Below are positions 35,099 through 62,611 of a DNA stretch of 64,000 nt, in pieces (position 1 is the first letter of the stretch; each line of letters starts with the position of its first letter). The notes under the pieces were generated by a model, which did no database searches, was not told where the DNA came from, and worked only from the letters and a program-made list of their open reading frames with translations. The position numbers and the translations under genes are program-made. The stretch lies in assembly GCF_001280255.1 (NCBI RefSeq), contig NZ_LHCI01000106.1, forward strand, positions 417,907-481,906. Reading direction: 5' to 3'. This stretch comes from Thermus aquaticus. Its GTDB lineage: Bacteria > Deinococcota > Deinococci > Deinococcales > Thermaceae.

Positions 35099-36789
35099 AG
35101 AGGTGGCTTTTATTGGTGGCGCTTCTCGGTCTGGCCCTGGCCGCGCCCCTTCCCCAGGTCTACGACCGCCTGGAAGCAACCCTGGCCCGGGTGCGCCTGG
35201 ATAACCCCACAGGGGCCCTGGCCGCCCTGGACCAGGCCCAGGGACTTCTGCGCCAGGAGGCGGAGGGGCTTCCCCCGGTCCTTCGGGACGCCGCCATAAG
35301 CAACCTCCAGGAGGCCCGGCAGGCGGTGCTTCGGAAAAGCCCGGTAGACCTCGAGGCCCGCCTCCTCCTGGTGCGCCACCTCCTGGGCAAAGCCCTTTAC
35401 GACGGCTTCTTCACCGCGCAAGGGGAGGAGAAGGCCCTCTACCTCAGCCGCCTGGTGCGGGCCACCGGCCTGGGGCAGGGCGCGGTGAGGGAGGTGGCGG
35501 GCCTGCCCCCTGAGGAGGCCAGGAAGCGTCTGGAAGGGCGCTACCTGGCCCTCATGGCCCAGGACCTGGCCCAGGCCCTTGCCGCCACCTCCCGCCCCCA
35601 GGCCTACCTGGCCCTGGCCCGGGCCTACGCCCGCTACCTGGTGATCCAGGATAGCCAAAGGAGCACCCTCAAGGCCCAGGACTTCATCCAGGCCCTGGCC
35701 AAGGTCTCGGGCGGGGAGGCCTTCCGCCCGGAGGTGCAGGAAATCCAGAAAAAGGTTCTGGCCTGGAGGGAGGCTCTCAGGCCGGGCGCCGCGGCCCCAG
35801 TTCCCAAACCCCAGGCCGGCACCCCGGCCCCCCCTCCCGCCCCAAGCCCCGCCACCCAGGCCCCATCCCTGCCCCAGGCCAACACCCCGGCTCCAGCACC
35901 CTCCTCTCCTCTTCCAGTCCAGGAAAGCCCCCAGGTGGAAACCTTTTACGTGGCCTCTTGGGCAGACCCCGCCCTTAGGGAGCGCCTGCGCCGGGTAGCC
36001 TACGACTTGGGCTTCGCCTACTACCAGGACTTTCTGGAGGCCCTCACCCAGACCCAGCTCCAGCTGGGCCTGGCCACCGCCGCTCTGGGTCAGGGAAACC
36101 AAGGGGAGGCCAGGGCGCATCTGGAGGCAGCCTTTTGGAACTTCTCCGCCAAAATAGAGCCCCTGGCCGCCCTGGTGAACCCCAGCCTCACGGAAAGGAC
36201 TCTAAGAGCCCTCACCCGCCTGACCCAGGCGGTGGGGGTGCGGGCCATAGATGTCTTCCCCGTGTACGAGGCCTTGGAGGAGCTAGGCCGCCAGTTCCGT
36301 ACTGGCCCTAGGGAAACCCCCTGGCTAGACTTCCGGCTTAGCCTTCTGAACTTGGTGGGCGTTTCTAGGGCGGTCTTCTTCCTCCTGGCCGCGGCCTTGG
36401 CCTTTTTCCCCCTCTACCTCATCCGGCTCACCTTCGGCGGGCGCAACGTCTACTGGAACCTCCTAGGCCTGGCCTTCCTCTTCCTCCTTCTACCCATCCT
36501 GGCGGAGGGGCTTTCCTACTTCGGCTCGGTCATGGCCGAGTACGGGGGCCTACCCTGGCTGGCTGCTTTGGCCAACTTCTCCATCGGCCAGGGCCTCCTC
36601 CCGTACCTGACCTGGGGTTTCACGGTGTTCCTGGTGGTGGCCCTGGCGGGGGCGGGCCTACGGGGTATCGCCGCCCAGTTCGGCCTCCTGAAGGAGCGGG
36701 GGGCGGAGGTGACGGCCAGCGGGATAGAGAGCAAGCCCGCCACCACCCTCACCAGCGAGACCATCGTGGAGTGGGACGAGGAGTTCTAA
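35095..36789 (+). CDS. Large exported membrane protein of unknown function
   Basis: This protein of 564 residues has a signal peptide (MKRWLLLVALLGLALAAPL), a helical, Leu/Ala/Gln-rich periplasmic domain (about 20-225), a Pro/Ala linker (about 228-275), a second helical domain (about 280-410) and three membrane helices near the C-terminus (about 420-445, 453-475, 505-530). It ends in an acidic cytoplasmic tail (IVEWDEEF). It is not a family I recognise; repeats of paired helices suggest a TPR-like scaffold. With the roadblock-like partner it may be an envelope-to-cytoplasm complex. Its TAA stop lies in repeat element copy A. Confidence 0.7.
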   Translation: MKRWLLLVALLGLALAAPLPQVYDRLEATLARVRLDNPTGALAALDQAQGLLRQEAEGLPPVLRDAAISNLQEARQAVLRKSPVDLEARLLLVRHLLGKALYDGFFTAQGEEKALYLSRLVRATGLGQGAVREVAGLPPEEARKRLEGRYLALMAQDLAQALAATSRPQAYLALARAYARYLVIQDSQRSTLKAQDFIQALAKVSGGEAFRPEVQEIQKKVLAWREALRPGAAAPVPKPQAGTPAPPPAPSPATQAPSLPQANTPAPAPSSPLPVQESPQVETFYVASWADPALRERLRRVAYDLGFAYYQDFLEALTQTQLQLGLATAALGQGNQGEARAHLEAAFWNFSAKIEPLAALVNPSLTERTLRALTRLTQAVGVRAIDVFPVYEALEELGRQFRTGPRETPWLDFRLSLLNLVGVSRAVFFLLAAALAFFPLYLIRLTFGGRNVYWNLLGLAFLFLLLPILAEGLSYFGSVMAEYGGLPWLAALANFSIGQGLLPYLTWGFTVFLVVALAGAGLRGIAAQFGLLKERGAEVTASGIESKPATTLTSETIVEWDEEF

Positions 36790-36886
36790 AGTACCCCACC
36801 GCGGCTTTCGCCGCGGTGGGGCCCCAAAAGAAAGGGCGCAGGGGAGTCTAGGGGAAGGTTTTGTATAGCAACGGGCAACCACTTAG
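36786..36886 (+). repeat. Stop-codon repeat element, copy A
   Basis: The element is 101 bp, with CTAAAGTACC at the left and CCACTTAG at the right (inverted CTAAGT ends). A 12-bp stem (36794-36805 with 36810-36821) has loop TTTC, then GGGGCCCCAAAAG, GGGCGCA and TAGGGGAAGG. The left-end TAA is the stop codon of the gene at 35095. See copies at 42645, 53046 and 62522. Confidence 0.75.
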
Positions 36887-36907
36887 CGCCAGAAGAGGGG
36901 CCCCGGC

Positions 36908-36941
36908 AAAACCCCCTGCGGCCTTGACTGCGCCGCGGGGG
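36908..36941 (-). terminator. Rho-independent terminator after fmt
   Basis: On the minus strand CCCCCGCGGC pairs with GCCGCAGGGGG (one bulged A) over GCAGTCAAG and is followed by TTTT. It lies directly after the fmt stop and ends the long zapE-to-fmt operon. Confidence 0.75.
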
Positions 36942-60959: not shown

Positions 60960-60963
60960 GGGT

Positions 60964-61866
60964 GTGACGGCCAGGCAGCGGCGGATTCTCCACCACCTGG
61001 TGGAGGTGTACATAAGGACCAAGGCTCCGGTGCCCTCGGCGAGGCTCGCCGAGGCCCTGGGCCTTAGCCCCGCCCTGGCCCGGTACGAGCTCATCGCCCT
61101 CGAGGAGATGGGCTACCTCAGCAAGCCCCACGCTTCCGCGGGAAGGGTGCCCACCCGCCAAGCCTACCGCCAGTACGCCCTCTCCCTCCTTCCCCCCGCT
61201 CCCCTTCCCAAGACCACCCAAGAAAGCCTCCTGAGGGCCCTGGAGGGGGCCCGTGAGCCCGAGCTCTTCCTGGTGAAGATGGCCTCGGGGCTTTCCGGCT
61301 ACCCCGCCCTGCTCCGCCTCCGCCCCAAGCGGGCCCCAAAGGTCCTCCAGATCCACTTCTCCCCTCTCCCCGAGGGCACTTTGGCCGTGGCGGTGCTGGA
61401 GGGAGGCAGGGTGCGGGAGGTCCGGCTTCCCCACACCCTGCCCAAGGAGAAACTTCGGGAGGCGGAGGAGGCCCTCTCCCGGCCCTTCCGGGAGCTTCCC
61501 GAGGCCCCCAAGGGCCTCGAGGACCTCTTCGCCCTCCTGGGCCGGGCCCTTTCCGCCGGGCTTTCCCTCACCTATCGGGAGGGCCTCGCCCAGGTCCTCA
61601 AGGAGCCCGAGGCCCAGGACCCAGGCTTCCTGGAGCGCCTGGTCCGCCTCTACGAGCGGGGCGAGGAGGACCTCCTCACCCCCCCGGGCCGGGTGGACGT
61701 GCGGGTGGGGGAGGTGGAGGGGCTGGCCCAGGTGCAGGCGGGCCTGGAGCAGGGGGAGTGGCAGGGGGAGCTGGTCCTTTTGGGCCCCATGCGGATGCGC
61801 TACCCGGAGGCCCTCTCCGTGGCCCAGAGCCTCTCCCAGGTCTATACTGGTACCCATGCGGGTTGA
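60964..61866 (+). CDS. hrcA: Heat-inducible transcription repressor HrcA-like
   Basis: This protein of 300 residues has an N-terminal winged helix with RQRRILHHLVEVYIRTKAPVPSARLAEALGLSPALARYELIALEEMGYLSKPHASAGRVPTRQAYRQY, matching the HrcA pattern of Pro-Val-Ser and LSxAxxRxExxxLExxGYLxxPHxSAGRxPT. The rest is a GAF-like and coiled dimerisation part. HrcA binds CIRCE elements to repress groESL and dnaK; no CIRCE copy and no heat-shock gene is in the window. It starts with GTG. The moaDE gene begins within its last codons. Confidence 0.85.
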   Translation: MTARQRRILHHLVEVYIRTKAPVPSARLAEALGLSPALARYELIALEEMGYLSKPHASAGRVPTRQAYRQYALSLLPPAPLPKTTQESLLRALEGAREPELFLVKMASGLSGYPALLRLRPKRAPKVLQIHFSPLPEGTLAVAVLEGGRVREVRLPHTLPKEKLREAEEALSRPFRELPEAPKGLEDLFALLGRALSAGLSLTYREGLAQVLKEPEAQDPGFLERLVRLYERGEEDLLTPPGRVDVRVGEVEGLAQVQAGLEQGEWQGELVLLGPMRMRYPEALSVAQSLSQVYTGTHAG

Positions 61867-62527
61867 GGTGCGCCTCTTCGCCCTGTACCGGGAGCAGGCG
61901 GGCCAGGACCGCCTCCACCTGGACCTTCCCGAAGGCGCCCGGGTAAAGGACGCCAAAGAGGCCCTGGAAAGGCTTTTCCCCGGCCTCTCCCTCCAGGGGG
62001 GCATGGCCGCCGTGAACCAGGCCCTGGCCCAGGGGGAAACCCCCCTAAGGGAGGGCGACGAGGTGGCCTTCCTGCCCCCGGTCTCGGGGGGGCAGGACAG
62101 CTTCGGCCTCACCCATGAACCCTTGGACCTGAAGGCCCTGGTGGACTGGGCCACGGCCCCCGAGTACGGGGCGGTGGTGAGCTTCCTGGGCACCACCCGA
62201 AGCCCCAACCGGGGAGAGGAGGTGGCCTATTTGGAGTACGAGGCCTACCCGGAGATGGCGGAAAGGGTCATGGCGGAGATCATCGGCGAGATGCGGGCCC
62301 GCTGGCCCCTGGGCCGGGTGGCCCTCTGGCACCGCTTGGGTCGGGTGGACCCCGGGGAGGCCTCCATCGCCATCGTGGTCTCGGCCCGCCACCGCAAGGA
62401 GGCCTTCGCCGCCTGCCAGTACGCCATTGACCGGGTCAAGCAGGTCCTCCCGGTCTGGAAGAAGGAGCACCGCCAGGACGGAAGCTTCTGGGTGGAGGGC
62501 TTCGCCCCGGAGGAAGGGCGGCTTTGA
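61856..62527 (+). CDS. MoaD-MoaE fusion, molybdopterin synthase
   Basis: This protein of 223 residues joins two subunits. Residues 1-81 are MoaD, a ubiquitin-like sulfur carrier (VEVRLFALYREQAGQ ... DEVAFLPPVSGG) ending in the conserved Gly-Gly that must be a free C-terminus to carry sulfur. Residues 82-223 are MoaE (DSFGLTHEPLDLKALVDW, GAVVSFLGTTRSPNRG, WHRLGRVDPGE, WKKEHRQDGSFWVEG). Together they make molybdopterin from precursor Z. The chain must be cut after GG or work in another way, as with MoaX proteins. It begins 11 bases before the hrcA stop. Element copy D starts at its stop. Confidence 0.88.
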   Translation: MRVEVRLFALYREQAGQDRLHLDLPEGARVKDAKEALERLFPGLSLQGGMAAVNQALAQGETPLREGDEVAFLPPVSGGQDSFGLTHEPLDLKALVDWATAPEYGAVVSFLGTTRSPNRGEEVAYLEYEAYPEMAERVMAEIIGEMRARWPLGRVALWHRLGRVDPGEASIAIVVSARHRKEAFAACQYAIDRVKQVLPVWKKEHRQDGSFWVEGFAPEEGRL

Positions 62528-62611
62528 TACCATCCCAGGCTGGCCCAAGCCAGCCTGGGGGCCCCAAAGGAGCGCATCCGAGGCCCAGGAAGGGAAACGG
62601 GAAGCAAGGGC
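62522..62611 (+). repeat. Stop-codon repeat element, divergent copy D
   Basis: The start CTTTGATACC is related to CTTAAGTACC of copy C, with the moaDE stop TGA inside it. An 11-bp stem (62534-62544 with 62549-62559, loop CCAA) of unrelated sequence but the same geometry is followed by GGGGGCCCCAAAGG, GCGCA and AGGCCCAGGAA, as in copies A and B. The right CTAAGT end is not seen; the next gene begins at 62612. Confidence 0.55.

Follow-up and report, generated by a model that had tools for sequence, protein, structure and literature searches.

Among short repeats that carry no gene, RUP of Streptococcus pneumoniae is 107 bp long and, in the available text of its description, is proposed to be mobilised by the transposase of IS630-Spn1 (PMC2229807). 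The repeats considered here lie in a stretch of 64,000 nt of Thermus aquaticus DNA (contig NZ_LHCI01000106.1, positions 417,907 to 481,906; henceforth ‘the window’), which holds three copies (A, B and C) of a repeat named family 1 and one copy (D) of a sister repeat named family 2. On comparison, RUP is the nearest working parallel to the Thermus family. The shared features, as far as the available text goes, are length, TA target, tips matching those of an IS630 insertion sequence (IS), dispersal and absence of genes (PMC2229807); the two differ in host and sequence, and in the Thermus family the hairpin head is strong, heads and tails can be exchanged, and CTAG sites and stop codons are habitually occupied. 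Correia/NEMIS and ERIC elements are alike in their TA termini, terminal inverted repeats and stem-loop transcripts (PMC2229807, PMC10969869), but the accessible parts of these accounts place Correia elements mainly upstream of genes and describe most such miniature inverted-repeat transposable elements (MITEs) as A+T-rich. A plausible kind of helper is ISTth6 of Thermus thermophilus, assigned to the IS630 family with 2-bp direct repeats in the portion consulted of PMC6352166; likened by its description, it differs in being autonomous and 1.0–1.4 kb long. Finally, GTAG REPs are small palindromes whose termini, in the excerpted text of PMC3733652, often give the flanking open reading frames (ORFs) a stop codon; they differ from the Thermus family in tag, transposase and target. 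The literature searched, mostly without subscription journals, holds no description of such a family for Thermus. This agrees with a first-pass annotation, made from the letters of the window, which knew of no described Thermus element of this habit, although the kind is known from RUP, Correia and ERIC. Family 1 is an abundant repeat family, apparently undescribed in Thermus.

Family 1 is very probably a non-autonomous MITE of the IS630/Tc1-mariner type, ∼104 bp long and flanked by duplicated TA. It is read so because empty and filled sites differ by TA-element-TA, the tips are AGTRCC, the copies are dispersed, the ends are similar to those of IS630 and the target preference is YTAR. Where a cysK-like gene converges on a second gene, the T. 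aquaticus genome (G000) has the arrangement GAC-TA-element-TA-GCGGCGG. The same place is an uninterrupted YTAG (CTAG in 19, TTAG in one) in 20 of the 26 other Thermus genomes; the two stop codons overlap within it, and the C-terminus of the second protein remains [VI][VIL]RR. Of the remaining six genomes, five have other surroundings and one is not readable. At the site of copy B, the element is absent in all five species alignable on both sides, and T. igniterrae has GGGCTAGCTGG, an element-free CTAG in which the two stops overlap. Six species are alignable on both sides of copy A. The site is empty in two of them (Thermus sp. 2.9 and T. igniterrae), is occupied in T. caliditerrae and T. arciformis by a family-1 element of like orientation whose stem is different, carries in T. 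tenuipuniceus an occupant that looks like family 2 (TAA-TGCCACCCC) and holds a remnant in T. composti. Filled sites thus read TA..TA against YTAG in empty ones, showing a TA target duplicated on insertion. Neighbouring elements lie end to end with a TA in common, and at locus L042 an element and an IS630 copy adjoin in the same way. At mutM, several genomes carry an element, whole or partial, and the one in genome G018 has the opposite orientation. At the same gene in genome G003 (L398), a palindrome TGATGCCGCCCCACGCGG..CCGCACGGGGTGGCATCA lies 3′ of mutM directly on the TGA stop codon, hinting at a third family whose tips are TGCC.

The ends of family 1 point to its likely helper. IS630 copies in genomes G026 and G025, ∼1,060 bp long, read TA-AGTRCCC...GGCACT-TA, with the same tips and the same TA as family 1, and the copy in G026 contains DDE_3 and HTH domains. 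The majority right end of family 1 aligns with the end of IS630 copy L041 over 28 bp, a match equalled by none of 500 shuffles. In L041 and L042, as read from the sequence, the transposase frame passes ACT into the flanking TA, so that the target completes its stop codon. DDE_3 matches at E≤0.001 occur in 17 of the 27 Thermus genomes. An IS630 transposase, not found in this assembly, presumably moved family 1 in trans. Of the two explanations offered by the first-pass annotation, the first, in which an IS transposase mobilises a MITE, gains support from the TA target, the empty sites and the IS630-like ends.

The majority form of family 1, from an alignment of 27 copies in the T. aquaticus genome, is TAAGTACCCCACCGCGGCTTTnGCCGCGGTGGGGGCCCCAGAAAAGCCCTTCCAnAGCCCCGACTTGGGCACCCCATGTTGCGAAACCAAAGTGCGGGCACTTA and comprises a hairpin head, a joint GGGGGCCCC and a tail. 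Full copies are ∼104 bp long, with a head of ∼38 bp; the terminal inverted repeats (AGTACCC and AGTGCCC) are short and imperfect. In the 2.25-Mb genome, a pattern of head and tip has 74 matches and its reversed control none. Pooled sequence and pattern searches catalogue 86 heads; as two of these are L038 and L029/L208, both palindromes, read on the opposite strand, the total is at least 84, with left flanks that are all different; this is a lower bound since the sequence searches scored part of their candidates. Among the 84, the joint is exact in 63, and 46 (the full copies) have a tail, with at least 70 bp in all, and an outer TA of their own. A strict pattern of 34 bases is found in 14 of the 27 Thermus genomes and in none of 23 genomes from four other genera of the family, and the 104-nt consensus matches 21 of the 27 (E≤0.001). 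The prediction that further copies exist in Thermus and keep to stop codons is thus borne out. As to strand, the T. aquaticus genome has 51 forward and 23 reverse heads (39 and 16 with a stricter pattern), and genome G022 has 29 and 25.

Short GC-rich palindromes that lie outside genes in many copies also recall REP/REPIN-type repeats moved by a RAYT (Y1) transposase, the more so as the accessible text on GTAG REPs reports termini that supply stop codons (PMC3733652). That origin is extremely improbable: the empty site reveals a TA duplication, the ends are IS630-like, and the foot of the stem is TAAGTACC or TACCAC and not GTAG or CGTC. Where either tag was looked for at the stem foot, the foot proved to be TAAGTACCCC or TACCACCCC.

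In the window, the existence of copies A, B and C is confirmed, at the places given by the first-pass annotation (Table 1), each unit spanning TA to TA. Its statement that the terminal TAA of each is a gene stop codon, and that both convergent genes end on copy B, agrees with the ORF ends. The common layout it described holds for the head and tips shared by A, B and C, but the left tip of A has one additional A (CTAAAGT) and the tails are alike in A and B and different in C. Stems A and B differ by the two compensatory changes it had noted, A–T to G–C and C–G to T–A; copy B has in addition one A·C mismatch. Copy D, taken for a diverged fourth copy, is indeed related by a covariance model of 104 positions but lacks CTAAGT ends, belongs to the sister family and has a different span. 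With this model, E-values are 2.8e-40 for C (itself in the training set), 1.4e-16 for B, 4.9e-14 for A and 7.6e-07 for D. RNA folds of the four copies have z-scores from –1.98 to –4.06. The predicted gene start at copy D (ATG 62612) is made of the last base of the element and the repeated TG. An Rfam scan of the window returned three tRNAs and the signal recognition particle RNA and nothing else. Elsewhere in the window (25198–25249, minus strand), a head-like palindrome CCCCAGCCCGGC-CTT-GCCGGGCTGGGGACCCC lies between two minus-strand genes and gives a weak model match (26.5 bits).

Table 1. Positions of the four repeat copies in the window, with the stop codons found at their ends
Copy	Span	Strand	Type	Element limits	Hairpin	Stop codons at the ends
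A	36786–36886	+		TA 36787–36788 to TA 36884–36885	36794–36821	Left tip: TAA 36787–36789 of ORF 35095–36789
B	42645–42742	+			42652–42679	Both tips, convergent genes: TAA 42646–42648 of predicted gene 42397–42648 (plus strand); TAA 42739–42741 of ORF 42739–43359 (minus strand)
C	53046–53152	−	Family 1, majority type		53117–53144	Left tip: TAA 53148–53150 of ORF 53148–54065 (minus strand)
D	62525–62615	+	Family 2 (sister family)	62528–62612	62534–62559	Flanking TGA 62525–62527, stop codon of ORF 61856–62527; flanking TGA 62613–62615

Across the genome, the left tip is an exact stop codon in 43 of the 84 copies (40 TAA, 2 TGA and 1 TAG); at least one tip is a stop codon in 52 and both tips are in 12. 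These figures are undercounts, as the predictor missed the right-hand gene of copy B. Public annotation also has a coding sequence that ends on a tip in the T. thermophilus plasmids pTthSNM7-6b and pTF19b (two of the four records examined, out of 11 found). Among targets, YTAR is favoured, chiefly as CTAG. In the 46 full copies a pyrimidine stands outside the TA at 85 of the 92 tips (133 of 252 in the background); in the 15 full copies where neither tip is a stop codon, it does so at 26 of the 30 tips. IS630 elements are said to prefer CTAG in other bacteria. With the elements of the window masked, stop codons make up 39 of 165 TAs and 12 of 19 CTAGs located outside the interiors of reading frames. 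Both tips begin with A, so that an element entering a TAG or TAA stop codon at its TA rebuilds TAA in frame, and in a CTAG with two overlapping convergent stops one insertion rebuilds both. Insertions inside genes would mostly be lost by selection, leaving survivors at gene ends. Therefore, CTAG targeting together with the loss of harmful insertions predicts roughly the observed stop placement, and no separate 3′-end function is needed.

Several points weigh against the reading of family 1 as an IS630-type MITE with this target habit. Perfect inverted tips extend over only 6–9 bp. The right end of the A/B type bears a weak likeness to an IS630 end (over 16 bp, as good in 3 of 500 shuffles); its tail as the product of an IS630 end is no more than suggestive. 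A search of the T. aquaticus genome for DDE_3 (PF13358) gave no match at E≤0.001 and no resident helper was found; the helper is therefore lost, unassembled or elsewhere. Neither tip is an exact stop codon in 32 of the 84 copies, and two elements (L198 and L013) lie inside predicted genes; the gene calls come from a purpose-written predictor trained on the window. Lastly, the three-base TNA repeat of family 2, described below, misfits the 2-bp rule of IS630.

The hairpin head raises the question of an RNA function. In 68 distinct heads, the search pattern leaves five pairs unconstrained, each of which undergoes two-sided changes; the seven remaining pairs are fixed by it and hence uninformative. 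Paired cells amount to 96.3% of 816, with 75 double changes, and the covariation of 0.246 compares with 0.125 in shuffled heads (0 of 500 as high) and at most 0.177 in slid controls; the number of pairs with double changes is equalled by 72 of 500 shuffles. Thus, the claim that the fold is kept by covariation, first based on the window copies, holds over these 68 heads. Its source can be selection on RNA or DNA structure, or template-switch repair of palindromes. The second explanation of the first-pass annotation was an RNA module of the 3′ end; in a fuller form, the head would be a selected module (a terminator or an mRNA 3′ protector), spread by transposition, with an adaptive stop placement. 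Besides the covariation, several observations speak for such a module: the presence in T. caliditerrae and T. arciformis of elements with other stems that sit at the gene end of copy A and point the same way, heads that adjoin a stop codon without a recognisable tail (e.g. L020, L222 and L194), and the finding that 35 of 40 tail matches (among 67 candidates) go with a catalogued head, L327 and L249 among the other five having lost it. Yet a tract of at least five T within 10 nt after the hairpin, which would become a U-tract, is found in 1 of 84 copies in sense and 4 of 84 in antisense, and a terminator scan of 36500–37200 gave none. The head is hence a GC-rich hairpin that nearly always lacks a U-tract and no canonical Rho-independent terminator; such terminators follow only 2 of the 70 genes of the window under a similar rule, and Thermus may not rely on them. 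Stop use stands at about the level that CTAG targeting predicts. Among full copies, the stop codon is at the left tip only in 13 and at the right tip only in 7, an unconvincing bias for a head next to the stop. The family-2-like occupant in T. tenuipuniceus points to repeated insertion at the site of copy A rather than one covarying copy, and template switching may also keep palindromes symmetric, central loops being present in both orientations (TTTC and GAAA, TTGC and GCAA). The module is therefore unneeded for the stop placement and finds no support in U-tracts; it is retained as an unlikely explanation.

Family 2 behaves differently at its target. Its head, TACCACCCCNNGCTGGC-loop-GCCAGC, has 35 strict matches in the T. 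aquaticus genome and is present in 8 of the 27 Thermus genomes; full copies read TNA-TACC...GGGTA-TNA. In 10 copies from the T. aquaticus genome, D included, the triplet is TNA on the left in all 10, on the right in 8, and is identical on both sides in 7; shuffling of the right triplets gives a mean of 2.1 identical, and 7 is reached in 1 of 2000 trials. A second set of 16 copies, drawn from loci in several genomes and sharing two with the first set, has 8 with identical triplets, a number that likewise came up in 1 of 2000 trials. A 2-bp TA duplication was considered for this family and rejected, TNA flanks being found instead. Insertion of family 2 seems to create a three-base duplication, which in many cases is a stop codon (TAA, TGA) on one of the strands or the complement of one. 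A helper can be named for it with less certainty: the right end of family 2 matches DDE_3 element L051 over 27 bp (0 of 500 shuffles), the flanking triplets of L051 itself differ (TAA, TTA), and both are TAA in L062.

Heads and tails also occur in mixed combinations. Heads of the GCCGTGGC type are joined to family-1 tails in L227, L203, L186 and L189, a family-2 head to a family-1 tail in L328, and the reverse occurs in L185. Heads and tails are likely swapped at the common joint. This exchange, together with solo palindromes of 40–41 bp flanked by TA (L038 and L029), would accord with the ∼40-bp palindromic head, in effect a back-to-back pair of IS ends, being the mobile unit, with tails as passengers joined by recombination at GGGGGCCCC; the arm of the family-2 head also resembles the end of L051 (16 of 22 positions from TA, 1 of 500 shuffles). 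The 46 copies with a tail and their own outer TA argue otherwise, and no empty site was obtained for any solo palindrome, and a head moving alone is rather unlikely. A broader proposal would treat all these repeats as modular stop-codon transposons, whose heads are cassettes swapped between at least two families, one landing on TA with TAA rebuilt and the other duplicating TNA, often as a whole stop codon, and kept at gene ends as RNA 3′ structures. Although rather unlikely as a whole, it would mean that one transposon supplies both the stop codon and the mRNA 3′ structure.

Other insertion sequences associate with these repeats. In the T. aquaticus genome, three loci (L453 at 118050, minus strand; L454 at 703126, plus strand; L455 at 1130200, plus strand) have an element, which we take to be IS110-like, at the identical point of the family-1 tail. 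Its protein starts MLCAGIDISKPHLDLALVS in L453, and in two of the three the remaining tail resumes ∼1.1 kb later. The family-1 tail looks like a favoured insertion point for this element, in line with what a guided IS110 would do. The end AGAGGCTGTCGTAAAAG, presumably of an IS5/ISTth7-like element, directly follows MITE or IS630 tips in L034, L186, L193, L220 and L330 of the same genome and in L043 and L070 of other genomes, as would be expected if it targeted CTTAG.

Empty sites and a candidate helper are now at hand for an abundant repeat family of a model thermophile genus. What is new is such a family in Thermus; small palindromes providing stop codons have been published before, namely the GTAG REPs in the available text of PMC3733652. 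A simple rule emerges, whereby TA-targeting elements with ends that begin with A gather at stop codons in a compact genome, bringing the third letter of TAA. As a caution, stop-codon placement is not by itself proof of function. In this context, the Thermus family is a clean test bed for asking if hairpins of transposons turn into 3′-end signals.

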